From positions 1 to 64,000 of the forward strand of contig JALQPE010002968.1 in assembly GCA_030407315.1 (NCBI GenBank): DNA of 64,000 nt, given 5' to 3'. The position numbers and the translations under genes were made by a program. Of the stretch, positions 11,481-53,323 are shown one piece after another. Position 1 is the first letter of the stretch, and every line of letters starts with the position of its first letter. The notes under the pieces were generated by a model. The model was not told the origin of the DNA, ran no database searches, and saw only the letters and a list, made by a program, of their open reading frames with translations. This DNA is from Asparagopsis taxiformis (lineage: Eukaryota > Rhodophyta > Florideophyceae > Bonnemaisoniales > Bonnemaisoniaceae).

Positions 11481-11514
11481 CGTCTGTGTTCTCGGAAATG
11501 GACGCGGACGTCCA
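11481..11514 (+). repeat. Left terminal inverted repeat of giant transposon
   Basis: It starts CGTCTGTGTT and ends GCGGACGTCCA. 32 of 34 positions match the reverse complement of 53290-53323. Left flank is TTT (11478-11480). Confidence 0.85.
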
Positions 11515-11800
11515 CAACCTCTAGTACACCTAGTATTACTAGGCGGACGTCCATGTTGTCCAGTATTTTTGGATGTCCGCCTAGAACCGGACGTCCATGC
11601 GGTCTAGTACGTCTAGTATTACTAGGACGACATTCATTGTTTCTAGTACCACGGATGTCCTCCTCGGGATGGACTTCCACCATGTCTATGTCCGCCTAGG
11701 ACGGGCGCCGGTTCAGAAATTCAAAAATTTCGACCCCAGAAATTTCTGCCGCCGTGCTCGACATGGATGTCCGCATCCATCACGGCGACCACTCTAATTT
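11515..11800. repeat. Left subterminal region with GGAYGTCC sites
   Basis: It contains several GGACGTCC or GGATGTCC sites and repeats of CTAGTAC and CTAGTATTACTAGG. Matching motifs occur in the 43-bp tandem repeats near the right end. Such subterminal motif clusters are typical transposase-binding regions of CACTA elements. Confidence 0.6.
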
Positions 11801-12986
11801 TCCTTGTCGGTCGACTCCAATTTCGTCTTTAATTTTTTCATCCTCTCGCTCACACCCCCTTCCTGTTGGTGCTCACCTCCTCCGTACTGTACCTCAAACA
11901 CCCCCAATACCACTCTAGCGCGCATTTTCAGCTACCTGTCCCCGCTTCCACGGTGCACACCTCCATTCCATACCTACTTTTCGGCTTTACCGTACAGATT
12001 TCGTATAACCAGTCCTCATACTACCTCAGAATAAGGAAAAACACCCCTAACTCCTCGACCATGCTCTCCCCCATCACCTTTGCAACGTATTGTTCTTCAA
12101 TACCTCTCTCCTCTACCTTCAACCCCTCTCCTTCGCCCTCTCCACAAACTTCCCTGCAGCTTACTCTTCGAAAACCTCTCACTCCCCATCCCGTGCCCGA
12201 CCTGCTCCATCCCCTCCCTCCCTCAGCTGCTCCATGCCCCCCACGCCATCCGCATCTTAGATACCGTATACAGCACCACCACCGGCCCACACTCCCGCTC
12301 CCCCGCCGTCTCCTCAGAAACATCCTCTCTCTGAGCCACATATCAACTTGATAAGGGTTGAACCCCCCACTTCGCACCCTTCCTCCCACTCCCCTCCCTC
12401 CCCAAATACAATAACCCCCTTCTTCTCCATCACATCCCCACTCACCACAGCCAGAACAGACGCCACCCCCTCCCCCTCTTTCTCCTCACTTTCCTAAAAC
12501 CCCCTCCTCTCGGCGCCTTCAACCACAGCCTCCTACGGTCCCACCTAAACACCTCCTCCGCCCTCACTACCCCCAACACCCCGCAGCGTCTCTCTAATCC
12601 CCATAATATGCTCGTCAGCACTCCTCTCCGAATCACATTCCAGTCTAAACCCGCACTCCGTACATTTCCACCTCCCCCTGTACCATCCCAAGATTCCATC
12701 CAACCCCCCCCTACAGAACACATCCTCATACCAAAGAAGAATTTTCTTCTCCCATACATCATCCTTAAAACCTCCATCAGCTCCATGTAAATTTCGATGT
12801 AAATATTTTCTCCACTATGCAATCTCAAACATGTATGAGCGTATGCCTTTCCGCTTTGTCAACCTTGAATATTTGTATTCATGTATTCATAAAATAGGGC
12901 CACCCACATCCCTATCCCGTTCTGCAAGCTTTACAAACCACCAGACGCATACTCCACAACTATACAACAAACACTACTCGCTATTT
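11801..12986. other. Pyrimidine-rich low-complexity DNA, no supported gene
   Basis: Strongly C/T-biased plus strand. Open frames on both strands exist but reflect base composition and show no domain or family resemblance. Confidence 0.5.
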
Positions 12987-13043
12987 CAGACGACGCGGTA
13001 CACAAGTAGCATAGGCTATGCTACTTGTGTACCGCGTTGTCTG
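12987..13043. repeat. 57-bp near-perfect inverted repeat
   Basis: Two 27-bp arms (12987-13013 and 13017-13043) match at 26 positions around a 3-bp spacer GGC. A second short palindrome, GAGACTGAGTCTC, follows at 13043-13055. It could form a cruciform in DNA or a long hairpin in RNA. Confidence 0.85.
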
Positions 13044-13129
13044 AGACTGAGTCTCAACCTTCCGTGACGCCTTCCCTGATGCGTACAAGTGCGAAACACG
13101 TCTAGACGTATATCAGAAGTGAGTGCGGG

Positions 13130-14985
13130 AATTTTCGGCACAGGAGATGCTGGGCCACCAAATTGATTTTTCGGAAATTTTAGAATTTCTGGGCTGGCCA
13201 GCAACGCAATCGAGCTGGACATCCACCGGACGTCCATTTCAGGTTGGTCGTGAGAGAGTGGGGCGGGACCATGATGAAACAAGGACCAAGACCTTTCCCT
13301 GACGTATTGAGCCTGAAATCGACCCTTCGTGAGACGCCATTTTGGCTTACAGTTGGTGCTTATAGAAGCCAGTGATAGCCCCGATCGGGGCGGTGGCCGG
13401 TTCCGGCTTACAGTTGGTGCTTACAGACGCCAGTGATAGCCCCCGATCGGGCCGGCGGTCGGTTCCTGGGGCCGTTGTGGCCAAATTAGACACCCTGATT
13501 AGAATTAAAATTTGGGCTATTCTCAAAAACATGCACATGTGAACATGTTTTTGAGATGGGGGTGTGCCGTACGGCACAATCGACCCGCCCAAATCGTTGA
13601 TTTTTGCAAGATTTTTTTTGCCCGAAATTTAGAATTTCTGGGCTGGCCAGCAATGCATCTGAGCTCGACATCCACCGGACGTCCATTTCAGGTTGGTCGT
13701 GAGACAGTGAGGCGGGACCATGATGGAACAAGGACCAAGACCTGTCCCTGACGTGTTGAGCCTGAAATCGACCCGTCGTGAGACGCCATTTAGCCTTACA
13801 GTTAGTGCTTACAGAAGCCAGTGACAAACCCACTCGGGGCGGCGGCCGGTGCCTGGGGCCGTTCTGGCCAAATTAGACACCTTGATTTGAATTAAAATTT
13901 GGGCTATTCTCAAAAACATGCACATGTGAACATGTTTTTGAGATGGGGGTGTGCCGTACGGCACAATCGACCGCCCAAATCGTTGATTTTTGCAAGATTT
14001 TTTGTGCCCGAAATTGTAGAATTTCTGGGCTGGCCAGCAATGCATCTGAGCTGGACATCCACCGGACGTCCATTTCAGGTTGATCGTGTGCTGCCTACAT
14101 CCACGCATTGCAGTAACTAAGCAGGCGGGATCACTACTAATATAAAGTGCACGGAATATGAGTAACGTGATGGGTGAGTAGTGTTTGTGTTGAGGGAGTA
14201 AGGCGGGACCATTATGAAACACGGAAGAAGATGCGTACCTAGCATAACTTAGGCTTGAAGCCTGGAATCGACCCATCTTTCGGCGCCATTTAGCCTCACA
14301 GTTAGTGCTTACAGAAGCCAGTGATGACCCCGCTCGGGGCGGCGGCTCCGGTTCCTGGGGCCGTTGTGGCCAAATTAGACACCCTGATTTGAATTAAAAT
14401 TTGGCTATTCTCAAAAACATGCACATGTGAACATGTTTTTGAGATGGGGTGTGCCGTACGGCACAATCGACCCGCCCAAATCGTTGATTTTTTACAATTT
14501 TTTTGTGCCCGAAATTTTAGAATTTCTGGGCTGGCCAGCAATGCATCTGAGCTCGACATCCACCGGACGTCCATTTCAGGTTGGTCGTGAGACAGTGAGG
14601 CGGGACCATGATGGAACAAGGACCAAGACCTGTCCCTGGCGTATTGAGCCTGAAATCGACCCGTCGTGAGACGCCATTTAGCCTTACAGTTAGTGCTTAC
14701 AGAAGCCAGTGACAACCCCACTCGGGGCGGCGGCCGGTTCCTGGGGCCGTTGTGGCCAAATTAGACACCCTGATTTGAATTAAAATTTGGGCTATTCTCA
14801 AAAACATGCACATGTGAACATGTTTTTGAGATGGGGGTGTGCCGTACGGCACAATCCACCCGCTGAAATCGATGTTTTTTGCAATATTTTTTTGTGCCCG
14901 AAATTGTAGAATTTCTGGGCTGGCCAGCAATGCATCTGAGCTGGACATCCACCGGACGTCCATTTCAGGTTGATCGTGTATCGTG
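13130..14985 (+). repeat. Array 1 of palindrome-bearing repeat units
   Basis: Four full units plus a partial first one, with a period near 390 bp (one unit is extended to about 500 bp). Each full unit contains the hairpin arms CTCAAAAACATG and CATGTTTTTGAG, then the perfect palindrome GTGCCGTACGGCAC (13564, 13951, 14451, 14839), then GGCTGGCCAGCAA and CCACCGGACGTCC. The stretch 13,880-14,700 is nearly identical to 38,800-39,640. Confidence 0.85.
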
Positions 14986-15341
14986 CACGGCCACACATTA
15001 CCGGAAGCAAGTAGGCGATGAAGCACGTACATACCCAATTGTTCTGCTATTTCTAGCATAGACCATCGAGTCTAGAGATGTGAGGGAATCGTCCTGGAAA
15101 TCATGCTCCAACCCACGAGGGAATGGACAATCTAGTTTGAAAGCATGGAACGGAAGTACATTATACTAGGTTCATAGATTGGAAGTGATAAAGGAGATGA
15201 TTATATTCTCGATAATTGTTTACCAAAGTAGTAGTTGTTAAGCTATCTAGCCGTCGGAAAATTCTTCTTCGTCTTCGTCCTCACTATATTCAGGATCTCC
15301 CGGCAGAATAGGCGTTATCGGCAACTGTGGAGTTGATCTGC
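14986..15341. other. Spacer between array 1 and the dioxygenase gene
   Basis: No gene seen. It would include the 3' untranslated region of the minus-strand gene at 15342-18215. Confidence 0.5.
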
Positions 15342-18215
15342 TCAAGATGAATTCTTCACCCGGTGTGAGGGTTCTCTTCTTGGAGCTTCTGTCGTCTTCA
15401 TCCGCATGATTCCGAGCTGCCCTGTCTTCGGCCTACGATCTTTCTTGACCGGGATGGGAACAACTGTCTTGTGGCGAACATTGACAGGTGCCGGTTGACT
15501 TTGCCTGGCAGACCGGCGCGGAGCATTGGGGATTACTTCTTCTTCGAATCCCAACCGCCTGATGAAACCAAAAGAAACATTGTCGGGAATCGGATACGAC
15601 GCATTCCTGAAATACGTGTGATACCTCGTTGTCGTGTGTGACACAACTCTGTCGACATGCCCTGCCCCGGCATGTTGTACATAGCCGTGACCGATGAAGA
15701 CTGAACGTGGCGGAACGATTACCTTGTTCAGCTTCATCGTCTTGGCGTACATATCTAATTCCAGCGCTTTGGAAAAGACGTACTTGTGGGACCCTGGACA
15801 CACCCAGATAGGGAATGGGTCATCTCCGTTGGCAATAACAAAGTAACCCGGAAGTTGATCTTTGCGGTCGCGAGGAGGAACAGGGAAATCATTGTGTGGG
15901 ACCTGCCGAGGACACCCCTTTCCCGTTATCAAAACCGTCCCCCAGATGCCGGCATGACAAGTTTTTCTCCCGGTAAACCGCACTCCTCCATCCCTATCAG
16001 CCGGACAAGGATTCCCAACCACACATCCAGCAGGGCTCGCCGCGTCACAAACTTGAACCGGTCGATATGCGTCTCATCGTTCTCGGCATAGTCAACCAGG
16101 CAGTGGCGCGTAGACGTAAAGCGAGCCCTCCCGTCATTCCGGTTCTTCTCATCTGTTTCATCGTCCCCCGTATTGACAATGGGACTCCACAGCTGCCGGT
16201 TCCCAGGGTCCTTGTGCACCTCCTCCCCCTCCCACGTTCCCAAAAAGTACCGAAACAATTCCTGGATAGGAATTTCTTCCATGAGACCCAAGTCAAATGG
16301 GAACTTGTCCGACGCATCGAGGTAGCTTACATCCGCGAAATTGTGCATCACCGTATACCCTCGCTCGTTGATTTCCGTTCGGCAATTGTGGAAGTACGCC
16401 ATACCAGTGCCGGCCTCATACGAATCCTTCCAGCTTGTAGACATTCGCGCAACCTGGGCGAAGTCCAGCCTCGAGGGTAGAAACGTCGATGTAGGCTCAC
16501 ACATCGCCTTGGCAGCCATCTTCCACGCTGCGAAAAACATCGGATAGATGGTGTCGATCTCGAAAACAAGATGACGAGCCCGATGTTGTTCCGGAATATG
16601 CAGCCCCTCAAACACAGGGTCCATCGCCACTTGCTTCAAATACCTCACCTCTCTGCCCTCCTCATCGATTTCCACACTCTCCAATAACAACCTGAGCTCA
16701 ATCGGGGGCAGACAACCAACCCTCACCGATGCGATGACGTCCGCGGGACGCTGCGCCAGATGATGCCCTTCAGCTCGGTCTTTGACTTCGAAATCGTCGG
16801 GAAGAGATGGCATCCGGTCGTCGAACAGGAGGTCGTGTTCAGAAGGAGAGTCACGAACGATGTAACCGTCTTCATCGACTTCGACTCCTTCCGGAACAGT
16901 GAGTGTAATTGTCACTTCGCGGACCCCCTTGCTTTCGACTTGGCCCTCGTCTGCACTGTTGTTTTCTTCCTCGTCCGAACGTTATGGACAGATTCTTGGT
17001 TGGAGGGAGTCGCACCAGCACGTTGGTTATCTTGGGGGACAATCTCAACGGCAGAATCGGGGGAACGGGCGGAGTCTTCGTCAACCTCATCACCGGAAGC
17101 AGTGGCTTGTTGTTGATCGGTGGGTTTATCAACAACGGGCTGCTCTTCTTCCCCGGCGGATTGTTGTACCACAACCGGCTCTTCTTCCTCGAGGCGTGTG
17201 CTCCCCGTCGAGCGAAGTCGCTGTGAACGGCGGCGGATGCCATGCGAAGCAGGCTCATGTTCGACATTCCGCTGCTTCTTGTGAGTGAGTCTCACATTGG
17301 CAGCAGAAGGGCGGCGTTTGCGTCGAGCCTTAGTCTTCTTCTTCAATGTCGGATTGAAAAACTCTTTCAAGTTGGTTTCCAAATCCTGTAAACGCGTGGT
17401 TCTCCGTCGCATTCGAACCTCACTGCTCCGGTCGTCCCCTCTATACATTGCAATGGCATTGGTGAGATGCCATTGCAACTCCTTCGGCTGCTTAACCGAC
17501 CCAATTGCCATCTCTGTGCTCAGAATGACTTGCGCATAATACTCTTTGGGCGCCCATACGCAGCGTACAGAGAATTTGCTATTGCAGTCACGCGACGGAC
17601 GTATGTATAGAAGTCGTTCACGTCAAAGCGTCCATCCGGACGTCCACCATGAGCAGGGTTCAAGTACTCCGAAAGACCACGCAAGACGAAGACAAAGTTT
17701 TCTTCCAGCAACTCGCGCACTATCTTGTGGTCCAGGTGCGTTATCCCAATCTCGTTGCGGCGCTCGGAATTGTTCAGCTCACGCAACACTTCGTCGAGAA
17801 CAGGATGCTTCAGCGTTGCTATAGCCAAACGCGTCCACCGCCGGGCCGTGTTCGTTGAATTCATCATCCCCATGAACTGCGCCTCGAACAATGTTCGGAT
17901 GACATCAGACTCACGCAAGTCGCCAGCGTTTTCCACGTTATTTGCAACAGCAATCGTACGGATGAACTGCTGGATGGACGACAAGATTCGAACCAGGGAG
18001 CGCTCCGTCAGTTGCGTCCCAGTCGTATGGTTCGACTCTGCACTCTTGTGGATGATCTCATGAGGCTGAAGATCACTGTTGTCCTTGCGGCGAAGGTAGT
18101 ACACATCCAGAGGCTGAGTAACCCAGCGCAAGCGGTTTGCGTCCTGTGGCAGCTTGGTTCTGTGCATACGGGTGAGGCGCGTGAAGTCATCGGCAATGCT
18201 ATCCCTAGTGGACAT
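15342..18215 (-). pseudogene. 2OG-Fe(II) dioxygenase (PhyH-like) cargo gene, frameshifted
   Basis: Four abutting minus-strand frames (18215-17520, 17511-16912, 16915-15929, 16022-15342) read as one gene of roughly 950 codons with three single-base breaks, near 17550, 16920 and 15943. The last two fall in runs of five G. The N-terminal part is helical and unrecognised. The second piece is basic and disordered with acidic stretches. The third is of unknown fold. The C-terminal piece has the signature of a double-stranded beta-helix dioxygenase: VPHNDFPV (HxD), WVCPGSHKYV, GHGYVQHAGAGH (distal His) and YHTYF with a nearby Arg. A phytanoyl-CoA dioxygenase-like fold fits best; a TET/JBP-type nucleic acid oxidase is not excluded. 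It is either a young pseudogene or affected by homopolymer sequencing errors. Confidence 0.6.
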
Positions 18216-18888
18216 TTGCGAGTGGAGATGGAGGATTGATAGATGATCATAGGAGTCTAATAAATCTTGATGTAGGAGTATTTTAAGAGGATAGCGAAAC
18301 TTTCTAGTGACCTCAGAGAGAGATCCACGTGTCCTCCACTTGTACCCGACTGTCCTCTAGCTGTCATACGCTTGTGCTCCAGTGAACACACTTTTGACCC
18401 CCTTTCATGTCGCTGTATTGAAACAAAAAAAATTTGGAAAAAACAGAGGATCTGGATTTCTCATTTGATTCCATTGGCTCAATTGCGTGAGGAATGTGCC
18501 GTTGGCACGTCGTATTCGAAAGAAATTTATCATAACAGTGACATTTTTTATCATCCGCGACGTGACAGTTAAACATAGTATCGTGACAGTCACAGAGGTG
18601 TGACGATCGGGACGCAATCAGAAATGACGAGACATCATCTCGTTGTTTTGTAACCCGCAGCTTCCCGTAGTTCAGAGTTGTAAATATTTCGTGGAACTCA
18701 TGAATGGGAACACATTCCAGTCATGACCTTATTTCGGGTCGAGAGCCGCATGATGCGTGGGGAAGATGGTACCAACTCAGGGGGGTTTTCAATCTGCTTC
18801 ACGTAAATAATCACCAAACCAGCCCATCAGAAAAAGTAGACTGAACTAGATATGTGAATCGCCATCCATTCATTCGTGAAGGGATTAT
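18216..18888. other. Intergenic DNA, no supported gene
   Basis: About 670 bp without a supported frame. It would hold the promoter of the dioxygenase gene and the 3' end of the tnp2 transposase unit. No clear inverted repeat marking the edge of the tnp2 element could be found. Confidence 0.4.
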
Positions 18889-21800
18889 TCATTTCATTCC
18901 TTGTAACGTTCGGTTGATTCCATCCGGGGAGCACTTCTCCGCGTCCAAAAGCTGATGAATTCTTCTAAAGGGATCCATTATGTAATACCTCTCCTCAAAC
19001 TTTTCTGCGATCACGTGTTGGACAATTCCTTGTCGTGTTCTTGCAATTTTTGGCACAGAATGAATCAAAACCCCAACAATATTGAGCAGAACTGATGGGT
19101 CCTCAACAGTTGGTGAAGAGAACATATTCGATCCCGCGTTCACTCGATACACTTGATCCCACCTTGTCCTCTTCAGCCCTGACACCCAGTCAGCGAGAAT
19201 CAAATCATGTGTAGAGATTCCAGAGGAAAGATGAAACGTATATCTCAAGATGCGAAGGATTCTCCCATAGTACACTGAAATAGAATTATTGTCACCATCA
19301 ACTTTGAACTGCGCAGAAATGAAGTAGTCAGGCCGGATATCACCAGAGCAATGCCGCTTGGACTCCTTCGCGCCGTACTTCTCCCACCCATTTCCGGAAT
19401 GGTTCTCTAAAGAACCAAAGGATAATATCCTGTCTTGTTTTGTTGCTTCATGTGCCTCTGTTGATGTCAGATTAGCCGTTTTCATAATGTATTCACACAA
19501 AAGGCGTCTTAGGTTTAGGTGTGGATGAGAAAGCTCTGAAAGAAAGTGTTCCCCATCTGGGAATAGTAGCTTCCGGTCCTCATCACTTTTCTGTTCCTCA
19601 GGGGCAGTGAAAGGCTCTGAAAAGAAGAGCTTGTAGCTCTCCAGTAGTTTCTCCCCTTCAAATATAGATTCTGCAGCTAGATTGGTTGCATTAAGCCTTT
19701 TCTTGATAAACCCAATGTAGCGCTCTACCCAGAACTGACTGTAGATCACCGGTGGTCCGCATGCTTCAACACAGTCCCTTAGATGCAATATCTGATGAAG
19801 TGTTGATTTGCACAACCCAACTCTCCTTGGATCGTATCCAAAATAATTTTTTTCGAAGTTCTTCAGGAAGGAAATTGCAGATTCATGGAGGCGCCCAACG
19901 TCCTCCTTCGAAAGACTTGCCCGAGAACACAGCTCGACAACGTTGCTGAAGCACCACAATCCATCCATAAGACGGCTCGGTAGGTGTCCTTCCATCAATA
20001 TTGGTGCGTAAATCACTGCAAAATCTTTGCACTGTGTTGCTTTCCACGATGAGTACCACGAGGAATCTAATGGTACAGACCCGAAAGCCCTTTCACAAGT
20101 TCCTGATCCAATGTTCGCGAATTCCTTGTCTATTATTTCCCATTGATGAGCAGAAAGGACAAATTCCGCTGTACTGAAACCCGATCTCTGCATGTGGACA
20201 CTGTCCCCCTTCCATATTGACATTAGATCCTTGATGAGGTTTAGAAATAGGTGCATAGTATCAATAGGGAAAGAAGAAAAACGGAAAAACAGTGTCAAGT
20301 TCCATAACACTTGTCTTCCTCTTAATGCCAGTTTCCACATTGATCTTGCGTTTCTGCGCAGATGTCATGCACGGATTTTCTAACGATTCCCATGTACCAT
20401 TCACGGACTCTTCTGATCTGCAGTCCAAATTTTCGGGATCATAAAGCCGTTCGTATTTCGATCTCTTACCATTGGATACTCTTATCTTCGAAGGGAAGTA
20501 GTAGTGATTTGAACCGCTTAGGCGAAAGCCGACAATCTCGCAGAAGCGACACGGACACTTTCCGTTAGATCCTGTAAGTCCGGCAAGTTTAGCTACTGCT
20601 GGAGAGTCTCCAGTAACCCATAAAACATGCACACGGACCTTTCGTACTGATCCATCCCAGAATTTGATCGGCGTTCCTCCGTTGCGATTGATTTTGGATA
20701 CCTCTTCCAAAAGTGGTTGAAGGAAAGTGTGCAGTAGAACAGGCTCCTTCGGGCCCTTTATGACTCCAAAGGTATAACATTCCACATGAGGAATCTCATC
20801 TGCGGTGGTAGGTTATGGACAAGAGCGACAATTGGCCAACAGTCATATTTCCTGTTTCCATAAGGTTGGAATCCATCACATGATAGGGAAATGAAAATAT
20901 CGTTTTCTATCATGTCATCACCACCTAGAGATGATACAATTTTCTTGAACAACCATCCACTGAAAAAGTCATCAATGTATTCCTCACCATCCGCTGAATT
21001 GGACTTCTTTCTCCTCTCCATGTAATCATATAGTACCTTACATGTGTTTTCATTTTGGACCCAAGCTCGAATTCGAGGTAGAAGAGGGAGATAATCAAAC
21101 GAAGTTATCTCGGAAAATTCATCCCTTTCAAGGCAAACAATGCATCCGCTGAAACTTCCCGGTAACTCCGAAATCATAACTCCACCATCGTTGAATTCGA
21201 TGTCAGCTTTGTTGAGAAGCATGTGTCCTCTACAAGTTAGATAGGAAATCGGGAGGAGATTAGAATACTTTGCCATGTTTCGACGTATCGTTTTCCATGA
21301 CTTGTACGATGAAGAGATATTTTCGAGTACAGTGTCCATCACGGTTGCTGGAAGAGAGAACTTGACACCAAAGTATACCCATTTCTTATTCGAGTCACAC
21401 CAGGATTTGAATCTCACACGGTTAAAGGCTCTTGTAGAGAAATTGTTAGTTTCGTTCTGATGATTTTCTGTCTGTTCCATTTCGAGAACTTCATCTTCTT
21501 GGGATATAGGGATTGTAGTTAACGGATCTTGAACATCTTGCAGTGCACAGCTCGGGTCTGCGAGAAGAGAACTCATCTTTTCAAGCGCTTCTTCGGTGGA
21601 AGACTCAAACATAAAGGAGGAATCAGAATCCCCTTCGAAACTACTAGAACCAGGTCTGCCAAAATCATGACGTTCTGACTCGACATCCGCTTCGTCTCCA
21701 CTGCAACCTACGTCCTCGTATTGTTCCATATGATTTCCGCCGTTGTTTTCGTCATATACATCCGTTTCTATACTGCGTAGCCTCTTTGCCTTCATATTTT

Positions 21801-23527: not shown

Positions 23528-23610
23528 GATATATCTCTCGTCCGGCCGGAAGATACGGTAGTCAGCTTCAGGCTTCCTGGAAAGCGCAGTTCTATTGTCA
23601 AGTTTTCGAT

Positions 23611-28251: not shown

Positions 28252-28273
28252 CTGATACACAGTCATGGGGCGC

Positions 28274-37245: not shown

Positions 37246-37353
37246 TGCTCTTTAAATCTTACAAATATCCTCCATTTACTATTCTGAAAAAAAAGTTCTA
37301 TGTAATCTCTCTGTATCATCTATGAGACCTCCTCATATCATCCCAAAAAATCA

Positions 37354-44300: not shown

Positions 44301-44587
44301 ACGAAAACATCGAGCATCCAATTTGGATTGTTCCGGCTCCGTTCTGTTCGGCGCAGTTCATCAACGACCCGCGGTATTTGCGAGGTGAGGACACTCCGGC
44401 GGAAGACACCAGGCGGATGGCCAACGTCGAGTTTGTCGAGAACTACAGCAGCGGTTCGACGGGGAAGAAGCTCAAGGCGAAGGACCTAGAAAATCCGAAG
44501 ATCATTGTAGTACGTGCAATCCGCGATATCCGTCCGGGGCAGGAGCTCTACGTTCATTATGGGACAGCGTTTAGAGCATGGAATTAG
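41384..44587 (+). CDS. Beta-class amino DNA methyltransferase fused to SET domain
   Basis: 1,067 residues in one frame. The first 500 are helical and unrecognised, with a Thr/Arg/Pro-rich linker near 400-450. The methyltransferase has the catalytic motif LTDPPYN (507-510), a LLRPGGHGIVFCS block, a long acidic insertion (about 585-622) and the AdoMet motif VVDPFSGTFATGKAA (748 onward). DPPY before DPFSGT is the beta-class order of N6-adenine/N4-cytosine enzymes. The C-terminal SET domain starts at GRGLFAEQTFNVGDEV (911) and has QFINDPR, ANVEF, and IRPGQELYVHYG near the end. Known families would predict DNA methylation plus protein lysine methylation; both activities in one mobile-element protein are inferred. 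No zinc-rich pre-SET or post-SET is visible. All key motifs look intact. Confidence 0.8.
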   Translation: MTNKRRRNSNPIVDDATVPILREPASPWEDSSDMGTRRNVGRAARETTLAGKDFLRLLLDLFAHSSFADLTDKPGGFTYADLGAWVAQGTEEQFLALQGRLSMAFSGRSKNAGVEADVAEIVMAEMNVERAKQIVRLALPIAEFSRQDERIGQWVEHCILSGIVPQTFLIGCNMLPSPLQAPQRGEPSAFVLAPPETFEVLMYFQALSIIRNHNKNLPRRRIGDAAEEGNEAARVPAHRKSTNRACYVVQVLYHAWTDVAFAAKFSSFEELMAPYIIFDSSEHWFDVLDEGLFAPIEQKLDLYHDKAPLSHPDGYGGKVETRTSAQHSVFRDLVRKFFDRLQFLIVNPDLYTWPESDRWGALEIYLSSGNPDKLPAYFDTLDEDVMAVLRPAPQAADAEKVPKPVDDTPTRRNTGGRGLVPSTRHTTRLQLGPGRTSLTAQGPSPPSPSPHATEEQESEGQALAKDFLSKMSQYCRVYDVPFEDLVSADESREHVPITGNVQLILTDPPYNVRRKRNDSNSSYDRLTAEDMQASIEVFDELLRPGGHGIVFCSVLQFYEWFHYLETYKGPQSEGPTDAAASDDGSDEEEVTSMNSDSEASQHSGEESADEEEEEDEEEEDVVRNSVFFVDEVPLLFVRLPGHLYQMPGRKRYQRMNMAEVAIHFWKRGVPFKTGSEMVAYRNHGYMDGTYPAWCNVTINMPAIDSNEMVWRTRSTTGATVRVRAEQKSVALMMELISQHSQPGDIVVDPFSGTFATGKAAMSLPEHRVFVGSDMDKLCVARSLPKLCAVMSRVILSNNTDMRVTTEAKQSAEKFLASPSVTMRTQRERRIIEPPPGLPLYQRFPKYIRQYLWQLCPESIASHEHMEKPVHYWPPSLRRWLQTENPRVMRAHDCVAKKLSVRPSLIKHPNAGRGLFAEQTFNVGDEVCAYYGTVVYSDMSKESMRFAYGEGHMAITKETFLMYAIKLYATAEDDENIEHPIWIVPAPFCSAQFINDPRYLRGEDTPAEDTRRMANVEFVENYSSGSTGKKLKAKDLENPKIIVVRAIRDIRPGQELYVHYGTAFRAWN

Positions 44588-44811
44588 GGTCACGAAAGAT
44601 GTTTTCATTTCGACTACAAATAAAGCTACGTTCCAGAGTTGAAGTATATCATATAATGCAGCATGTCCAGCCACCATTACTCCAGGGTGAAACCTATTGA
44701 GCAGTACTCGCCTGTCAAAAACCAATCGTTCACACTCTAGATGCACTTCGTCCGAGCAGTGAACCTGACTGCTTGGATGCTGTTATGCGTGCAGATGCAA
44801 AATACACGACC
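44588..44811. other. Short spacer after MTase-SET gene
   Basis: It includes AATAAA-like ACAAATAAAG at 44619, a possible polyadenylation signal about 30 nt after the stop codon. Nothing else is seen. Confidence 0.4.
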
Positions 44812-45017
44812 AAGTTGAAATGGACGCCCGGTGGATGTCCAGCTCAGTTGCATTGCTGTCCGGCCCAGAAATTCTACAATTCAGGGCAGAAAAAAATATT
44901 GCAAAAAACATCGATTTGGGCGGTCGAAAGTGCCGTACGGCACACCCCCATCTCAAAAACATGTTCACATGTGCATGTTTTTGAGAATAGCCCAAATTTT
45001 AATTCAAATCAGGACGT
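44812..45017 (-). repeat. Inverted palindrome-bearing unit upstream of coiled-coil gene
   Basis: The same unit in reverse orientation, with GTGCCGTACGGCAC at 44930-44943 and both hairpin arms intact. It ends about 230 bp before the start codon at 45247. Confidence 0.85.
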
Positions 45018-45246
45018 CTTCCGGACATAGGGGTGCTCGCGGCCTAGCTCTACAGCTGTAATTGTACCTCATTAAATACTGTTGATGACTGCCTACCGTA
45101 TACAATCTGGGCTGTTGGCGTATTATCCGGTACTTGACCTGACCTGAACGTTCATCGCAGACCGTTGTGGTTACCGACACTATACAGCAATCTTTTTTGT
45201 ATCTCGTGCAACTCAATCGTTCCATCGCTTCCGGGAAAGCTTCATT

Positions 45247-47532
45247 ATGCCGCCGCGTATTGCGAAGAAAGCTCCAAAGCCTCCGGGCCTCCAGAAAACC
45301 CGGTCAGCAGCTGCTGTATCGAGTGCCCGACAATCCCGTGCGAAGAAGCGGTCTGGGCCTACCGGCAGCATTGAACCGCGGTCCGGTAGTCGCAAGACGG
45401 ACCGGCGCAGAACTGGGGATCCGCAGCGAGAAAGTGAGGAAGGAGGAACGGCGCGGAGAGAGATGGGGCTTGACCGAGGCAAGCGTGCTCGCAGGGACAG
45501 TGAACATCATGATGATGACATGATAGTGGCTCAAAACATGTTGGAATTGCGGCAGAGTGCTATGGCAAAGGTAGTTCCTCCCGGGTTGGCAGATGCGGAG
45601 GTGCTGCAGACGGAGTCCCAGCCGGGGGTTCCCGAGACACTGGAGGCTGTGACCCCCACTGCGCCAACTATGCCGAGTACATCAGCCCCAGCAGGTAATG
45701 CAGTCAGGGACCCGAGGATAGCGGCAAGGGATGTTGTTTCTGAGCAACGTTCACAGGATGCCAACTATCATCGGCGGTCAGGTGGTACTGAGGGGAGAGA
45801 GCAGCCGGAGTGCGGGCCTCGTCACAACAGACTGTCATTGGTGCCAAATATGCGCGTAACGCCCCCGCGACGTCAGGCTATTGGCGATGGAGGACATCAT
45901 AATCCCGATAGCGTGCGAGATGGGGGGACGGTGAGGGCAGAGAGGTTGCATCCGCCGGAATCCATCGATTTAATGGCGAGTCGCATCAATGCGCAGAAGA
46001 AGAAGATCGCGGAGCTGGAAAAAAAAGTGTTTAGCCAGGACATAGCAAACAAGGCGCTCACCACGGAGATAGTTGCGTTGGAGGCTAAGGTGAAGACTCT
46101 GCAGGCGGAAAATGCCAGCCTTACTGCAATTGCGAGAACAGGTAGAATCAGTGATCACGGTGGCGGTAAGTCGAAAATACAGAAAGCCATTCCTGTGAAA
46201 TACCTTGGAGTTCTTAGGGCGGTTGAGGAAAACCTGACAAAGTGGTGCAAGAACGAGACTATGGAGCTGGACCCTATAGCGGAACAAACGCAGAGACGTT
46301 GGACTGGACGTACCATCGAGGTAGAGCCGGTAGAAGGGGCACTTTGGAGCGAAAACGGTGTAGGATATATTGCTACCCCTCCGGGCTATATCATCAAGAA
46401 TCTGCAGTGGTATACACCTTCGTACAGAGACGAGAGTGATCTGCTGAATGACTTGGTGCGACACGTACTGCGTCAAAGTCCGTGGTGTGATGTGTTTTCC
46501 GATGAGGAGCAGCGTGTGTGCTGTCAAGAGGCTGTGGCGGGGAGCAAGGAATTGAAAGTGAAGGTGACGCAGAAACTGTCCGACGTGATGAGTGCACGGA
46601 AGCGTAATGCGAGGGACAGATTGTTCGGTTCGCTGGGGTACACGAAATTAATGTCTAGATGCACGATGCTGACGACGCGAGCTGAGATGGACGAGCGAGA
46701 GGATCAAAAGCGCGAAGCGTCTGAGAAGCTTTTGAAACGGGAAAGCAACGGTGATTTGGATATGGGGAGGTGGCGAACGGCACCGTTCTCAGAGCTGCGA
46801 TACAGCAAAGGCATGGTTCCTGACAGCTTCGAAATGGAAGTGAATGGTGATGCATGGTTTAACAACCGAGTAGCTGTGAATGTGCTGGACATCTTCAGGG
46901 GTTATTCGATACGACCAGAACAAGTAATGGACATAGAGACGAGCATACTAACGCTGGCGCGCCTGGATGCTTGGCTAGTGACTACTGTGGAGTGTTTGGA
47001 TGAACCGAAGGGGAAAGGAGGTGCACGGCAGAAGGAGTTTACAAGGCGGTACAGTCAATATGTGGGGGTAGCTTTTCAGCAATTAGTTGGTATGGTGGTG
47101 TACTGCATGTCTTGTCTCCAAGGCTCGCAAGCAAGGGAAGAAACGGACGTTGTCGAGAGCGAACAGCGGACTAGTGCACAGTCACGGCATGTGTTTGCAA
47201 GCCGTACTGTGACGAGAGAGGCTGTTGAAGTGTGGCAAAGCGGAGAGGGGTCTGGAATTGTTCATGTCGTTGATGATGTAAACCGCTGCTCATCACTTGT
47301 TCTAGTGTCCGAGGATTGGATTCAATCGCATATTACGTCAAACCTCGGTGCTGTAATGGATTGTGTGATTGCGCAAGGACTAATTGGCGCAGAACTTTTC
47401 GTCGTTGACCCATATGCTGGACACCTGAGTGCAAACCTGAATGTCGAAATCAATGCCCCACAGTATGGGGGCATGGAGCGGCGCCATGCAGCCACTGCTG
47501 ATAACGGTTTTGGCGTAATGGAGGATGGTTGA
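45247..47532 (+). CDS. Basic coiled-coil protein, likely accessory transposon protein
   Basis: 761 residues, uninterrupted. A Lys/Arg-rich N-terminus (MPPRIAKKAPKPPG; several nuclear-localisation-like clusters) and a disordered stretch precede a coiled coil at about residues 243-297 (KKKIAELEKKVF and VKTLQAENASL). The C-terminal 450 residues look globular, with conserved-looking aromatic segments (YIIKNLQWYTPSY and WFNNRVAVNVLDIFRGYS). No family was recognised. It converges tail-to-tail with the Plavaka-like transposase (77 bp between stops), as expected for the two-gene layout of many CACTA elements, where the second product binds subterminal repeats. That role is inference. Confidence 0.65.
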   Translation: MPPRIAKKAPKPPGLQKTRSAAAVSSARQSRAKKRSGPTGSIEPRSGSRKTDRRRTGDPQRESEEGGTARREMGLDRGKRARRDSEHHDDDMIVAQNMLELRQSAMAKVVPPGLADAEVLQTESQPGVPETLEAVTPTAPTMPSTSAPAGNAVRDPRIAARDVVSEQRSQDANYHRRSGGTEGREQPECGPRHNRLSLVPNMRVTPPRRQAIGDGGHHNPDSVRDGGTVRAERLHPPESIDLMASRINAQKKKIAELEKKVFSQDIANKALTTEIVALEAKVKTLQAENASLTAIARTGRISDHGGGKSKIQKAIPVKYLGVLRAVEENLTKWCKNETMELDPIAEQTQRRWTGRTIEVEPVEGALWSENGVGYIATPPGYIIKNLQWYTPSYRDESDLLNDLVRHVLRQSPWCDVFSDEEQRVCCQEAVAGSKELKVKVTQKLSDVMSARKRNARDRLFGSLGYTKLMSRCTMLTTRAEMDEREDQKREASEKLLKRESNGDLDMGRWRTAPFSELRYSKGMVPDSFEMEVNGDAWFNNRVAVNVLDIFRGYSIRPEQVMDIETSILTLARLDAWLVTTVECLDEPKGKGGARQKEFTRRYSQYVGVAFQQLVGMVVYCMSCLQGSQAREETDVVESEQRTSAQSRHVFASRTVTREAVEVWQSGEGSGIVHVVDDVNRCSSLVLVSEDWIQSHITSNLGAVMDCVIAQGLIGAELFVVDPYAGHLSANLNVEINAPQYGGMERRHAATADNGFGVMEDG

Positions 47533-47609
47533 AATTAGTGCAGTAAATGTGACGTTGACTAGAAGGTTTATCATGTAGTACATTATCAATAGAGTGCTGC
47601 GATTTAGAT

Positions 47610-50600
47610 TTATTCTTCTTCATTATCATCTGTGAATTGGTAATCAGTGTTGGTGTAGAAGCGGTTGAGATAGAAACGGTGGTCCGACCAGTGCATTTGT
47701 TTCGTAAATGGCTTGACTGGAAAGTTACTTCGTACGATGTGCACGGTGCCAGATATAGTAGATGCAGGAATGAGGTCAAACCAAGGACCACCTGCACTGT
47801 GGGATGCAGTGTCATTGCTGTCAACGGATCCGTTGTCCGGGTCCCATGTGGACCACTTTAAACAAATGCACCCAAGTGATTTTTCCACAGCGGTTTTTGG
47901 GGCAAAGCAGGTCATATACTGAACGAAAGCGAGTTCTACAGGTTGAAACAGGTTTGGAGACTGCAGGCGTACCAGTGCCAGGACGCGCCCTACCCATATG
48001 GTTCTGTAGTCATCGGCAGTTCCGGAGATGACGACAAAGGAGTACTGCGATCTCTTTGCGGGGCCGAACGATGAAGTTGCAAAGACGCGCTGCTGCTTGT
48101 GCCTCGACACGTTTGTGGGGCGAAGCATGCCACTGTGCGGGTCAAAGTCGTCGGCATCTGGGACGTACCCTCCCATGACGTAGGCGGACTTTACCACGGT
48201 GACGGAAATGTCCATGTCATGTATTGGAGGGCCTTCTGCCGTGGCGCGCAGTCTAGCGAGGGTGAGGAACGCTTGTGCAGCTGTGTCACCGAGTTGCTGG
48301 AATAGCGTTATGGTGCCAGACGGGAACGAGGAGTTGTGCAGAGGCAAAAGAGTGGCAGGATCGGGCTGTCCGTCGATATCTGCAACGAGGAGGGTTGCAT
48401 CGGGCAGCAGGGAGGCAAAGTCGTGCAGTGCAACGGTGAATCCGTCGCGAACGAGTACTGCACCGTCTGTGGGCGATATCATGCGTGGGTTTCCCAATGT
48501 GTTCGATGGGGTGTGACCAGTTGGAGTGGCCAAGGAGAATTCCATGTGGCGAATAGTCTCTTCCATGGCTGTGGAGCGCCTTCGAGAGGTTTTCCTATAA
48601 CTCTGTTTGAACAGAAGATGCGAGTGTTCGTAGGGGCCTGCATCAATGTGTTCCAGGGCGCCATATCTCTGCAAGTCACCGGGAAGATGGTCTAGAAGAT
48701 GGAACTTGAAAGTTTTGAGACCTGTGGTGTGGAATGGGCCGAGGGTGGAGAGCATTGATTGTTTGAAATAGGAAATGGAGTTCTGGAGGCTTTCTAGTTC
48801 GGCGGCAGTCCAGTGCTTGATGCGACCGCGTTTCATGACCCATGCGACGAGGTCAGAGTATTGCGTGCAGATGGAAGTGAGGGGGGCTGTATCTACTTCG
48901 TCACAGCATGTGTCAATGAATGCTGCGATGAAAGGGAACACCATGTCGACATGGTGATAGTCTTTGGCTGCGAGCATGCCGCGTATGCCGTCCTCCGTGA
49001 AGAGGCCGTTCAAATTGGTGCCCTTCTCACCCTTGGAGAAGTCGACATGAAGACCGGTGATGTAGTAGTCGCGTTCGATAGCGGACAGAATGCTGTTTGA
49101 GCCGGCGAGGATGGATTTTTTCACCTTCTTGAAGGTGCGAGGTGTCCCGGAATGGGAGGCAGTGGTGGTGGTGAGGTCTGGGGAGCTGAGGCGGTGGACA
49201 ATGCACTGTTTGATGAGCTTTGAGATGCCGAGGTGGAGATTGTGCAGAGGCTCGAAGGAGAAAATGTTGTAGGGGTCTAGGGGACTGTTGGTGGGTAAAA
49301 GAGCGGTCGATTCGAGGACAGAGTGTTGTTCGAGGAGGGAGAGAGCTTCGAGCGGAGCAGTTGTATGCTCCTGAGCGCTCTCTTGGCGTGCAGAGCGTGT
49401 ATCATCGAGGGAGCGGGGCTGGTGTGGCGCGGTGGATTCAAGTTGAGTGGCGGGGATGTAGCAGCGGTGGCAGGGATGTGTGGTGGTAGTGCTGTTGCGA
49501 GTGCATGACAGCTCTTTGGCCTCTGGAAAGTCGCAGCAATAATTGGCTAGGATGGGAAAGCATTGGCGGGCAGTTGCAGTGGAGTCTGTGCAGGGGAACC
49601 CGGAAGAGAACGCGGTGGATAGGGACGAAAACACTTTTTCGAGTGCTTTATGAAGAATATCAATTTTGCGAGCGCGACTAGCAGAACTAGAGGTTGTCGG
49701 CATTTCATCACCGAACAAGGCGTTGGACGAAGGGTTAACAATGTACGGAAGATACCCGACGATGGTGAGGCCGGTACGGATGCAGTGGCGACGGAGGGGG
49801 GCGGAGAAGTTGAGCAGTGTGACGTGTATGGGGTATGCGACGATTGCGGAGCTCTTGAGGCTTGTGCTGCTCTTGTCGGAGTACACTTGGAGGAGGCCGG
49901 CAAAGGAGGAAGCGGTGGGATCATTTTCCTCTGCCCATACGACCTGTGGATCTTCCGAGAGCTGCACGCGCTGTCTAGTAACCTGGTGCAGCGTTTTCGC
50001 GAATTCTGTGTGTAGGGGATGAGAAAATATTGCGGTGCCGTCTGGGGCGGTCTGTGGGGAGGGGTGGAAGAGAGTATTTTGGTCGTTAGCCAGTGCTAAC
50101 TGCCTGCGGAGCATGTCGACTGGGTCGCGGAGGTACAGCTGTGCCGAGTACTTACCAGTTTTGTCTGGAATGATGTGGCTCTTGTAACCTTCGGTGCGGA
50201 AATGTGTTTCGACCATGGAAGCGGTAACGTGGCGACATTCTTCTACGGTGCGAACGGCGCTGTTGAACTTTTCTAGGGAGAATGCGGGGTCTTGTAGGAT
50301 GGTGATGACTTCGCTCACGCGGCCAGCGCCGGCCTTGTACTCGAGGGTTGTGAGACTGGCGGCGAGGGATTGCACGAGGAGGTCTGCGCGGGAGGGGGTT
50401 GAGGTTGGTGGCAGTGAAGCGTCACAGGGTGAGTCGCTGGAGGAAGCACGACCAGATTCTGGGTCTGGGGAGCTGGGTTGCGGGGAATCATGGTCGCCGT
50501 TTCGAGCAGGCTCATGGGTGACGGCAGGGACACGAGCGTTGTTGAAATGTTGGGGAGAGGGGTTGAAACGGTAGCGACACGTTCGCTCATGCAGCGCGAG

Positions 50601-50651
50601 CGCATAAGCATCTACGCAGTAGTAGAAGCACCCTTCATACTTGCATTCCAT
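47610..50651 (-). CDS. Plavaka-like CACTA transposase (1,013 aa)
   Basis: A full-length frame. The N-terminal zinc-finger-like CKYEGCFYYC...HERTC opens the protein, as in Plavaka proteins. Then come VYSDKSSTS near residue 258 (first catalytic Asp), AYPIHVTLLNFSAPLRR, VGYLPYI, a PCHRCYIP metal-binding motif after FPILANYCCDFPEAKE, FSFEPLHNLHLG near 464, and the C-terminal HLLDHLPGDLQRYG and GPYEHSHLLFKQSYRKTS near 650-680. These blocks in this order are characteristic of the family. It is the only intact transposase between the 34-bp inverted repeats, so it is the likely mover of the giant element. It lies 2.6 kb from the right end. Confidence 0.85.
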   Translation of the reverse strand: MECKYEGCFYYCVDAYALALHERTCRYRFNPSPQHFNNARVPAVTHEPARNGDHDSPQPSSPDPESGRASSSDSPCDASLPPTSTPSRADLLVQSLAASLTTLEYKAGAGRVSEVITILQDPAFSLEKFNSAVRTVEECRHVTASMVETHFRTEGYKSHIIPDKTGKYSAQLYLRDPVDMLRRQLALANDQNTLFHPSPQTAPDGTAIFSHPLHTEFAKTLHQVTRQRVQLSEDPQVVWAEENDPTASSFAGLLQVYSDKSSTSLKSSAIVAYPIHVTLLNFSAPLRRHCIRTGLTIVGYLPYIVNPSSNALFGDEMPTTSSSASRARKIDILHKALEKVFSSLSTAFSSGFPCTDSTATARQCFPILANYCCDFPEAKELSCTRNSTTTTHPCHRCYIPATQLESTAPHQPRSLDDTRSARQESAQEHTTAPLEALSLLEQHSVLESTALLPTNSPLDPYNIFSFEPLHNLHLGISKLIKQCIVHRLSSPDLTTTTASHSGTPRTFKKVKKSILAGSNSILSAIERDYYITGLHVDFSKGEKGTNLNGLFTEDGIRGMLAAKDYHHVDMVFPFIAAFIDTCCDEVDTAPLTSICTQYSDLVAWVMKRGRIKHWTAAELESLQNSISYFKQSMLSTLGPFHTTGLKTFKFHLLDHLPGDLQRYGALEHIDAGPYEHSHLLFKQSYRKTSRRRSTAMEETIRHMEFSLATPTGHTPSNTLGNPRMISPTDGAVLVRDGFTVALHDFASLLPDATLLVADIDGQPDPATLLPLHNSSFPSGTITLFQQLGDTAAQAFLTLARLRATAEGPPIHDMDISVTVVKSAYVMGGYVPDADDFDPHSGMLRPTNVSRHKQQRVFATSSFGPAKRSQYSFVVISGTADDYRTIWVGRVLALVRLQSPNLFQPVELAFVQYMTCFAPKTAVEKSLGCICLKWSTWDPDNGSVDSNDTASHSAGGPWFDLIPASTISGTVHIVRSNFPVKPFTKQMHWSDHRFYLNRFYTNTDYQFTDDNEEE

Positions 50652-51264
50652 GTCGAGTTTTGACGCAAAAGGGAGGATTGCGAGCTGAACAGGGGAGACT
50701 GTGCCGTCCAGATGCGACCAATTTTATTTTGTGGTGCTTTCGAGACTTGGAATGTAACGTGTTCGTTCGTAGTTTTGTGGGTAGTAGTTTTGTGCTCACT
50801 CCAGCTGACATCCCAACGGTGGAATTTAACCGAGAGTTCAATCATTTCCAACTGTTACATCACATTGCGTGCTGGCAACGTGTGCATGGAAGGACGAACG
50901 ACTGCCCTGGGACATGAATTTTCAATTAATTCATTTGTAATAATAAACTTTTTTATTTCCGAACTTCGTGGAATCTGAATGTGCTTTACAGCGGATATGC
51001 CACGGATCATGTAAGGAAAGCAAATGGATTCTCATATATATGATTATATGTTTATATTCGTTGTTCTCGATCCGGATCTCATTGTTCGGGGAATCAGAGA
51101 CCATGGCTTGGGCCATACTCAATCTCACTGCCGGCGATGATTTCGAGTATGCACAGCAAGACTTAAGCGGACGCTGAAAGCTGTCCGGTCGACGCCGCAG
51201 GCTCCACTCCGCCCTCATCACCGACTGAGATTCTTTGACCGCCTTTGCTTTGTTTAGTGTAGAG
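50652..51264. other. Upstream region of Plavaka-like transposase, no gene
   Basis: Presumed promoter region of the minus-strand transposase. No long frame or recognised motif. Confidence 0.4.
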
Positions 51265-52330
51265 GATGGACGAAGGTACGTGCGCGAATCTTGAGGGTAT
51301 GCATTGAGGGAAGCGTGGGTTTTGAGTCTGACTATTTCCGTTGATGCGATATTTTTCATGGGAAGCCTGTTGACTGATGGTGTGTATTGAGCGGAGGATG
51401 GAAGAGAGGTACGTGAAGTTTTGAAAGTATGCTGTGAGGGAAGGTTGGTTTTGAGTCTGACTGTTGTGGTTGATTCCGATGTTGTGTAGATGATGCAGGA
51501 ATGTTGATGACGGAAGGTAAGTTTCATTGAGTGCCAAGATGTGCTTTGCGAAGATATGGACTGCTGACTATGATTATTATTCATTGCAAGGTTTTTGGAT
51601 CATGGTTTGTATTGTGTGTAGGATGGATGAGAGGTACATTTGCGAGTTCTCAGGGTATGTAGCGAGGGAAACGTTGGTTTTCAATCTGACTGTTGCGATT
51701 GAATCCGATGTTGCGTAGGTGATGGAGGAATAGTGATGACGGAAGGTAAGTCACATTGGGCGCCCAGACCGGTTGTGCGAAGATGCGGAATGCTGACTAC
51801 TTTTCTTGGCTACACGATTACGTGATTTATGGTTTTTATTGTGTGCAGGATGGAACAGGTAAGGTAAGTGTGCGAGTTTTGAAAGTAAGCAGCGAGGGAA
51901 GGTTGGTTTTGAGTCTGACTATTTCCGTTGATGCGATATTTTTCCATTGGAAGCCTATTGAGTCATGGTGTGTATTGTGTGGAGCGAAGGTAAGTGTGCG
52001 AGTTTTGAAAGTAAGCAGCGAGGGAAGGTTGGTTTTGGGTCTGACTGTTGTGGTTGATTCCGATGTTGTGTAGATGGTGCAGGAATGTTGATGACAGAAG
52101 GTAAGTTTCACTGAGCACCAAGACTTGTTTTGCGAAGATATGGACTGCTGACTTTGATTATTCATTGCAAGGTTTTTGGATCATGGTTTGTATTTTGTGT
52201 AGGATGGATGATTCAGTCATCCTCTCGGAGAGGTAAGTAAGGGAGTTTCTAGGATATCTGTCGTGGTAAGCGTTGCTTTTGAATCTGACTGTTGGGGTTG
52301 ATGTTTTGTATGTGATGCAGGAGTGGTGAA
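51265..52330 (+). repeat. Degenerate tandem array with splice-site-like motifs
   Basis: The segment GAGGGAAGGTTGGTTTTGAG recurs (51315 degenerate, 51437, 51665, 51895, 52020). Two alternating modules occur: a TGTGTAG or TGCAG followed by 9-18 bases and GGTAAGT, and a TGTGTAGGATGGATGAGAGGTA. On the plus strand each short block is therefore bracketed by acceptor-like and donor-like signals. It lies in the right subterminal region of the giant transposon. Confidence 0.7.
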
Positions 52331-52676
52331 GCAGGAACGGCAGGACTGAAGGAGAGTGAAGAAGGGATGTAGGAAGATGGGGAATGAAGCTGTGAGGTGT
52401 TTCTGGTATGTGTATATTTTGGGGCATACGATAGAAGTGAGAGTGCGTTTCAAGTGGTGTAAGATTTTGCTGACAATGTTCATGTTTGATGTCTTGATGA
52501 TTTAATGGGCTGGGGTGGTGTCGAGGAAAGCGGGGATGGTATTGGGAAGGAGCGTATTTTTTGTAATCTAGGTCGTGAGGGTTCTTGAAGTATGTGCGGA
52601 TGGTGGTGCATGGCGTTCGGATGGTAGGGAGAACGTGATAGTGAGGGAGATGGGTGATCGACGATATGCTGACAGG

Positions 52677-52815
52677 TATTTTGTATTCTGGCTGGATACG
52701 TATTTCGTATTCTGGCTGGATACATATTCCGTATTCTGGCTGGATACGTATTTCCTATTCTAACCGGGTATTTATTTCCTATTCTGACCAGATATGTATT
52801 CCCTATTCTAGAGAG
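52677..52815. repeat. 24-bp tandem repeats (about six units)
   Basis: Units of the form TACGTATTTCGTATTCTGG-CTGGA, becoming degenerate to the right. They are part of the repeat-built right end of the giant transposon. Confidence 0.85.
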
Positions 52816-52932
52816 ACGTATTGTATACGAGCAGTTTCCTAAATGAGAGAATAAAATACGGTCCGATATGGGCCCTGAATTTACCATCCGCTGTAATTTC
52901 TTCCCTCCCGGTTTTCGCTGATATATTGTATA

Positions 52933-53190
52933 CTGGATGTCGGGTCCTAGTATTCCGCCATATGTACTAGAGAAAGTGGATGTCGGGTCCTAGTATTCCG
53001 CCATATGTACTAGAGAAAGTGGATGTCGGGTCCTAGTATTCCGCCATATGTACTAGAGAAAGTGGATGTCGGGTCCTAGTATTCCGCCATATGTACTAGA
53101 GAAAGTGGATGTCGGGTCCTAGTATTCCGCCATATGTACTAGAGAAAGTGGATGTCGGGCCCTAGTATTCCGCCATATGTACTAGAGAAA
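52933..53190. repeat. 43-bp tandem repeats (six units)
   Basis: Six nearly identical units contain GGATGTCGGGTCCTAG, CGCCATATG and TACTAGAGAAA. The GGATGTC and CTAGTA elements echo motifs at the left end of the giant transposon, as expected for transposase-binding subterminal repeats. Confidence 0.9.
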
Positions 53191-53289
53191 GTGGACGTCC
53201 GCATCCAAAAAATTTTTATTTTTTTTGGACGCGGACGTTCATTTGTTCTAGTAAATCTCGGGGCCGACTAGGACCCGTACTAGAGAGAC

Positions 53290-53323
53290 TGGACGTCCGC
53301 GTCCACTTCCGAAAACACAGACG
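53290..53323 (-). repeat. Right terminal inverted repeat of giant transposon
   Basis: On the minus strand it starts CGTCTGTGTT and ends GCGGACGTCCA. It is followed on the plus strand by TTT (53324-53326). A few bases further in, both ends share CTCTAGTAC. Confidence 0.85.

Follow-up and report, generated by a model that had tools for sequence, protein, structure and literature searches.

A Plavaka-clade DNA transposon with a methyltransferase-SET gene in a four-level nest of mobile elements

Nested structure of the block

The block at positions 11481-53323 of the window analyzed in this study, a 64,000-nt stretch of a draft genome assembly (141.49 Mb, 3,156 contigs), is a nest of mobile elements with four levels and not one 41.8-kb transposon, as the initial annotation had proposed; we place the probability of this reading at about 0.88. 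Gypsy-1, a retroelement, contains a 22.6-kb DNA transposon of the Plavaka clade, which contains a 19.2-kb CACTA/tnp2 element, which in turn contains a second Gypsy element (Gypsy-2) and a 430-bp repeat resembling a miniature inverted-repeat transposable element (MITE). In the order of events that this arrangement suggests, the Plavaka-clade element would have entered Gypsy-1 first, the CACTA/tnp2 element would have entered the Plavaka-clade element later, and Gypsy-2 and the MITE-like repeat would then have been taken in. Besides its transposase, the Plavaka-clade element carries a gene for a predicted DNA methyltransferase fused to a SET domain.

Gypsy-1 lies on the minus strand and is split into a left half with an RVT_1 domain (7330..11480, long terminal repeat (LTR) at 7330-7701) and a right half (53324..54658, LTR at 54286-54658). 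The two LTRs are 99.2% identical over 373 columns, and the target-site duplication (TSD) TAAT is found at 7326-7329 and 54659-54662, which bears out the earlier assignment of both halves to one insertion. Between them lie the left (11481..18202) and right (37443..53323) parts of the Plavaka-clade element, ending in 34-bp terminal inverted repeats (TIRs) at 11481-11514 and 53290-53323 with 32 matches, just as first described. The flanking TTT reported with these repeats proved partly right: the T's are present, but the duplication itself, by comparison with three uninterrupted Gypsy copies, is the 2-bp TT (11479-11480 and 53324-53325). Among 12 other Gypsy copies with the site-adjacent stretch, five were examined (C1812, C468, C1714, C1859, and C2807). 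The first three are uninterrupted, and read CCTTTTTAGAC where the window has CCTTTT-element-TTTAGAC.

The stretch 18203..37442 (19,240 bp) inside the Plavaka-clade element is the CACTA/tnp2 element. It begins with the 12-bp TIR CCCTAGTGGACA, ends with its inverse, and is flanked by the TSD TAT (18200-18202 and 37443-37445). When 18 stretches from four other contigs, amounting to 164 kb, were compared with the window, using matches of at least 300 bp, window position 18202 ran straight into 37443 at all six such junctions (two in C1833, two in C2525, and one each in C535 and C2426). The TAT that is double in the window is single at the five junctions read base by base in other contigs. The CACTA element itself is present with both ends in C609, C582, and C345, where it is flanked by ACA, GAG, and TTC, respectively, and one end was read in C2846; thus a perfect 3-bp TSD accompanies four of four copies with both ends read, the window included.

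Misassembly of repeats would be a conceivable source of such a block, given a draft assembly in 3,156 contigs, a highly repetitive element, and copies in C535 and C2807 that reach the contig end. We consider it very improbable, since duplications match on both sides of every nested unit (TAAT, TT, TAT, AAAGC, and GGAAATG), the identical Gypsy/Plavaka left junction stands in contig C2807, and the junction types are seen again in other contigs. A single cargo-bearing CACTA-clade transposon of 41.8 kb, although its outer termini are genuine and correctly oriented, can be practically dismissed, because other copies join position 18202 directly to 37443 and the stretch missing from those six junctions has its own termini, its own TSD, and other insertion sites. 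What stands of the earlier description are the extra genes and the Plavaka/CACTA-clade identity; the size does not, as the transposon is 22.6 kb long and the remaining 19.2 kb are a separate, unrelated insertion. Inverted repeats that stand as a single pair at a distance of 42 kb may thus enclose a nest, which calls for caution.

Ends and copies of the Plavaka-clade element

A genome search for other copies of the ends, proposed with the first description, returned 1,143 exact occurrences of the 42-bp left terminus (574 forward and 569 reverse) vs none for the reversed-pattern control, therefore these ends are not a chance similarity. The terminus begins at the same base, with differing flanks, in all seven further left-end loci that were fetched, and it is followed by flank in 30 of 30 fetched right-end loci (the window counted; some flanks are common to several loci), all loci having been chosen by their match. 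The inverted repeats belong to a real mobile family.

Subterminal regions are also repetitive. The right end contains 6.2 copies of a 43-bp tandem repeat (52934..53199), and the hexamer CTAGTA occurs five times in each terminal 300 bp vs three times in the remaining 22.0 kb. In addition, a family of repeats of approximately 200-390 bp (13109..15017, 38755-41040, and, inverted, 44742-45044) brackets the methyltransferase gene.

Three complete copies were delimited outside the window. The copy at C1833:179891-200782 (20.9 kb) has both the methyltransferase and the transposase genes. The copies at C1833:61027-79068 (18.0 kb) and C2426:94555-111453 (16.9 kb) retain a 1,364-aa open reading frame (ORF) described below, without the other element genes, and share a 4.8-kb segment with 1-kb inverted repeats. 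The 2-bp duplications are TT in the window (by the empty sites), AT at C1833:179891, and TT at C2426. The left end and the methyltransferase motif occur together in at least 13 other contigs, as judged by comparing the listed places by hand. Order and strand are as expected in 11 of them (C18, C52, C93, C164, C878, C967, C1567, C1813, C2237, C2426, and C2805), with 9.2-15.3 kb between the two; C81 and C88 deviate from this arrangement.

Several further arrangements of the family were observed. The 4.8-kb segment found in copies without the transposase (C1833:69870-74685; also in C2426 and C2525) has inverted repeats of 1,018 bp that are 99.8% identical, and in C2525 most of it is reversed, as though it had been flipped over. 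At C535:234855-262757, one family copy is inserted within another copy of the same family. Three right termini in C1776 (13668, 18984, and 24300) have the same flank every 5,316 bp, which suggests either a tandem amplification including the element end or an assembly fault.

Transposase and assignment to the Plavaka clade

The intact Plavaka-like transposase noted in the block was confirmed as a 1,037-aa open frame (stop to stop) on the minus strand at 47610..50723, which matches PF18759 with an E value of 2e-24 (86.9 bits vs a cut-off of 26.3). It contains residues D283, D398, C418-x2-C421, H675-x3-H679, and E699. In an alignment with 11 relatives, D283 and C418/C421 are present in 12 of 12 rows and D398 in 11 of 12, while H675/H679 and E699 are found in all ten rows that reach that far. 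The relatives are the homologs detected at E 0.001 among the best ~8,000 candidates, with identities of 98%, 41%, and 29-33%. The ratio of nonsynonymous to synonymous substitution rates (dN/dS) is 0.32 for the one pair compared, with four synonymous changes; in this and the other pairs below, codons with multiple changes (0-11 per pair) were excluded.

The order D, D, C(2)C, H(3-4)H, E is described for Plavaka/EnSpm of the CMCT clade (PMC12730594). By analogy with that description, the acidic residues listed above would include the catalytic ones. The element resembles the described Plavaka transposons in its PF18759 transposase with this order of residues (the histidine pair being H(3)H), in its TIRs, and in its TSD, which is 2 bp here and 2 or 3 bp in Plavaka; some Plavaka elements carry a chromatin-type gene, TET/JBP (PMC12730594). 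It is unlike them in its termini, in a host that has light-harvesting genes and is not a fungus, in its DNA methyltransferase-SET gene, and in its length of 20.9-22.6 kb. By its transposase sequence, the element is assigned to the Plavaka clade; set against the published classes by their description, its termini, CGTCTG..CAGACG, fit neither.

A fungal host, which the Plavaka transposase had suggested, was considered and rejected on the basis of ten genome matches to light-harvesting proteins (PF00504), all above the cut-off, and of condensin-II-like and Core-2-like matches. The long and intronless transposon frames count against a fungus as well; with its light-harvesting genes, the host is probably a red alga. 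To our knowledge, fungi lack or rarely have condensin-II-like and Core-2-like genes. The captain of Starship elements (a tyrosine recombinase, DUF3435) was not found among the 20 block frames and two copies of the 1,364-aa ORF that were scanned.

An allele with a candidate excision scar

Contig C1859 matches window positions 6286-7345 at 100% and crosses the empty site of a neighbouring copia element, which identifies it as an allele of the window locus; an interpretation of C1859 as a plain Gypsy variant was dropped after this allele test. At the element site it reads CCTTTT-C-AAAAGGTTGCTAAA-G-TTTAGAC, a 16-bp scar that retains the duplicated TT. The C and G are the element's first and last bases, and the 14 bases between them reproduce the left flank exactly, in reverse complement. 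Judged by its sequence, the 16-bp insert appears to be an excision footprint of the Plavaka-clade element. A scar of this form fits hairpin- or fold-back-repaired excision of DDE transposons. On leaving, the element would drop its own terminal bases and a filler copied from the flank, and its movement is most likely the work of its own DDE transposase, with the 34-bp ends and the subterminal repeats as substrate.

Template switching can also make palindromes, and since C1859 holds the sole scar seen, we weighed local palindromic slippage or another small insertion as its origin. This appears improbable, as the scar coincides to the base with the Plavaka insertion site, the duplicated TT is retained, and the element's terminal bases stand at both scar ends, while C2807 and C2839, with the same left flank, have the element at that site. 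In C2807 the left flank is shared at 99% and is followed by the left end of the element. Transposase-driven cut-and-paste is very probably how the Plavaka-clade element moves.

The Gypsy LTR of C1859 contains, ~1.3 kb from the scar, an inverted right terminus of the same Plavaka-clade family. Its position is consistent with a local hop, perhaps of the same copy. The left flank is present also in C3008, and, as more than two contigs share the locus, the sample may contain more than two haplotypes.

Genes carried by the element

The methyltransferase-SET fusion is encoded by a 1,084-aa frame (stop to stop) on the plus strand at 41333..44587. Its bacterial-type N6_N4 DNA methyltransferase domain (PF01555, E 3.1e-15) has DPPY at residue 524 and DPFSGTF at 765, that is, DPPY precedes motif I in the permuted, beta arrangement. 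The closest solved relatives are DpnA (E 4e-8) and, more weakly, CcrM, and one homolog, 99% identical, was detected at E 0.001 among the best ~8,000 candidates. The SET domain (PF00856, E 1e-6) shows FINDP in place of the NH pair that SET domains usually have at the cofactor/catalytic motif, and because of this departure histone methylation is less sure. From the motifs, we predict that the methyltransferase is probably active; activity of the SET domain is a more doubtful prediction. By analogy with motif usage in PMC8885841, DPPY suggests N6-adenine modification.

A 42-mer over the methyltransferase motif has 101 exact copies in the genome and none in the reversed control, a count that misses copies with any mismatch. 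An estimate of approximately 1,000 methyltransferase copies, from first-look counts of 1,041 and 1,072, was withdrawn in view of this exact count. Among the 40 scored copies out of 1,041 candidates, 37 tie with the window over 501 bp, and three are one step lower.

The 1,364-aa ORF, on the minus strand, is cut in the window by the CACTA insertion into a C-terminal part in several frames (15342..18202), with dioxygenase-like motifs by eye, and an N-terminal part (37443..38580), with a ParB-like motif by eye. It is open in C2525 and C1833:64364-68455, and open as 1,389 aa in C2426, and its dN/dS is 0.36-0.51 in three pairs. The motifs HND, PGSH, QHAG, and R, presumably dioxygenase-like, and DGLHRL, which we take to be ParB-like, were picked out by eye. 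Searches with pieces of the 1,364-aa protein gave best E values of 0.098 (Pfam), 0.2 (PHROGs), and 0.25 (PDB), and no homolog was found at E 0.001 among the best ~8,000 candidates. For a TET/JBP domain in particular, neither Pfam, PDB, nor the homologs gave a match, and the HND..H..R-like motifs were seen by eye alone. A third carried gene is the coiled-coil-like 794-aa frame (stop to stop) on the plus strand at 45148..47532, which has weak coiled-coil-type matches alone.

A possible role in chromatin

We suggest that the methyltransferase-SET protein and the 1,364-aa dioxygenase/ParB-like protein would be made from the element and would act on chromatin at its copies, the purpose of such action being escape from silencing or the timing of transposition. 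Such an anti-silencing or timing role is a tentative proposal. The most specific form of it, that the transposon writes its own chromatin code, one protein marking DNA adenine and histones and a second one editing or reading the marks, we consider possible though rather unlikely.

As the principal alternative, the methyltransferase-SET gene and the 1,364-aa gene would be carried along as passengers, contributing nothing to the life of the element. The 1,143 exact left termini vs 101 exact methyltransferase-motif 42-mers agree with this, as does the absence of the methyltransferase gene from two of the three complete copies outside the window. On the other hand, the 1,084-aa frame is open and has both DPPY and motif I, the great majority of the scored methyltransferase copies are equal to the window, and the 1,364-aa ORF, with dN/dS below 1, is open in three of five listed copies, two of them without the transposase. 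Overall, we regard the passenger explanation as unlikely, yet as a serious one.

Several observations weigh against the overall account given here. In C1833:179891-200782, three frames (methyltransferase, coiled-coil, and 1,364-aa) are interrupted, as is the 1,364-aa ORF in a second copy from C2525, in both cases possibly by read errors. The dN/dS values of this ORF are based on just 10-12 synonymous changes; no family, solved structure, or homolog backs its product, and two AlphaFold predictions of the dioxygenase-like region have a mean confidence score (pLDDT) of 31.8 and 32.6. The termini match neither TGT..ACA of PlavakaA nor CATCA..TGATG of PlavakaB. The copy C1833:61027-79068 has no matching 2-bp duplication (AT/TT), one of four copies with both ends read, and the excision scar is a single case.

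If self-marking is true, the element would hold its copies in an active state or set the time of its jumps, and the kit would have spread to no fewer than 100 places in one seaweed genome, with more than 1,000 related copies parasitizing or sharing it. Self-marking by a transposon becomes directly testable here, as near-identical copies are abundant and an excision seems to be preserved in one allele.

Comparison with known systems

Transposons with TET, SET, or cytosine methyltransferase genes have already been published (PMC12730594, PMC5890265). The retrotransposons of dinoflagellates and charophytes that carry DNA methyltransferases (DNMTs) are similar in having their own DNA methyltransferase and many copies (PMC5890265), but their enzymes are C5-cytosine DNMTs and the carriers are retrotransposons, whereas here an N6_N4-type (DPPY) methyltransferase is joined to SET in a cut-and-paste DNA transposon. 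The N4CMT protein of bdelloid rotifers (PMC8885841) is similar in that a bacterial N6_N4 methyltransferase, permuted, is joined to a chromatin domain in a eukaryote; it is encoded by the host, however, and has SPPY and, as its fusion partner, a chromodomain, in contrast to the transposon gene with DPPY and SET. The SET-carrying HarbingerS/MuDR transposons of Phytophthora are DNA transposons with a SET gene, as here, but belong to other transposase superfamilies, and the passage of PMC12730594 that cites them mentions no DNA methyltransferase fusion. In the literature searched, with most subscription journals outside it, there was no cut-and-paste element with a DPPY-type methyltransferase-SET fusion.

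In a published assembly of Asparagopsis taxiformis, 142.472 Mb are distributed over 3,308 contigs and DNA transposons make up 33.48%; a figure of its bromoform-locus contig labels two genes as 'site-specific' and 'adenine-specific DNA-methyltransferase' (PMC12115072). If A. taxiformis is the host here, these genes may be copies of elements of the kind described.

The CACTA element, its inserts, and the flanks of the nest

The inner element resembles CACTA/EnSpm in having Transposase_21, a 3-bp TSD, and a short TIR. It differs in its outermost bases, CCCTAGTG instead of CAC; in place of the CAC..GTG termini it has CCCTAGTG..CACTAGGG, and it is called CACTA by the sequence of its transposase and by its TSD alone. 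The tnp2 coding pieces are in three overlapping frames on the minus strand at 18889..22029 (PF02992, E 4.4e-7 for the best piece). C609 and C582 carry versions of the element that are ~13.5 kb long and C345 one of 13.1 kb, compared with ~13.5 kb in the window after subtraction of the inserts. Gypsy-2, on the plus strand at 23271..28530, has an open 1,581-aa polyprotein frame, 257-bp LTRs that are 100% identical, and the TSD AAAGC; judged from match spacing, it is missing from C609, C582, and C345. The 430-bp MITE-like repeat at 35887..36316, with the 7-bp TSD GGAAATG, is missing from each of the four CACTA copies with which the window was compared (C609, C582, C345, and C2846).

Two gene fragments lie on the plus strand of the CACTA element, a Core-2/I-branching-like one at 29630..30313 (PF02485, E 1.2e-4, 22.2 bits, below the cut-off of 23.4) and a condensin-II-like/HEAT one at 32732..33586 (PF12422, E 5.9e-9). 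Both are within a stretch of ~7.35 kb that is common to C609, C582, and C2846 at ~100%. Parts of 29630-33586 recur at mostly 86-94% identity in C101, C292, C2019, and C3064, either as host genes or as portions of other capturing elements.

Outside the nest, two copia-type retroelements were found at 1519-6288 and 58849-63573, with terminal repeats of 113 and 117 bp, each pair identical. The first is missing from the allelic contig C1859 and is probably a recent insertion. It divides the first of the Cys-containing, Thr/Ser/Pro-rich, secreted-looking ORFs beside the nest (1003-1518, 6289-6838, and 56718-57701), which have no Pfam match at E 0.01. Finally, C1929 contains a 99% match to the right flank of the nest (54669-57396); this match ends 10 bases outside the LTR (C1929:28500-28560), and the preceding DNA, compared by eye, is unlike either Gypsy or the left flank.

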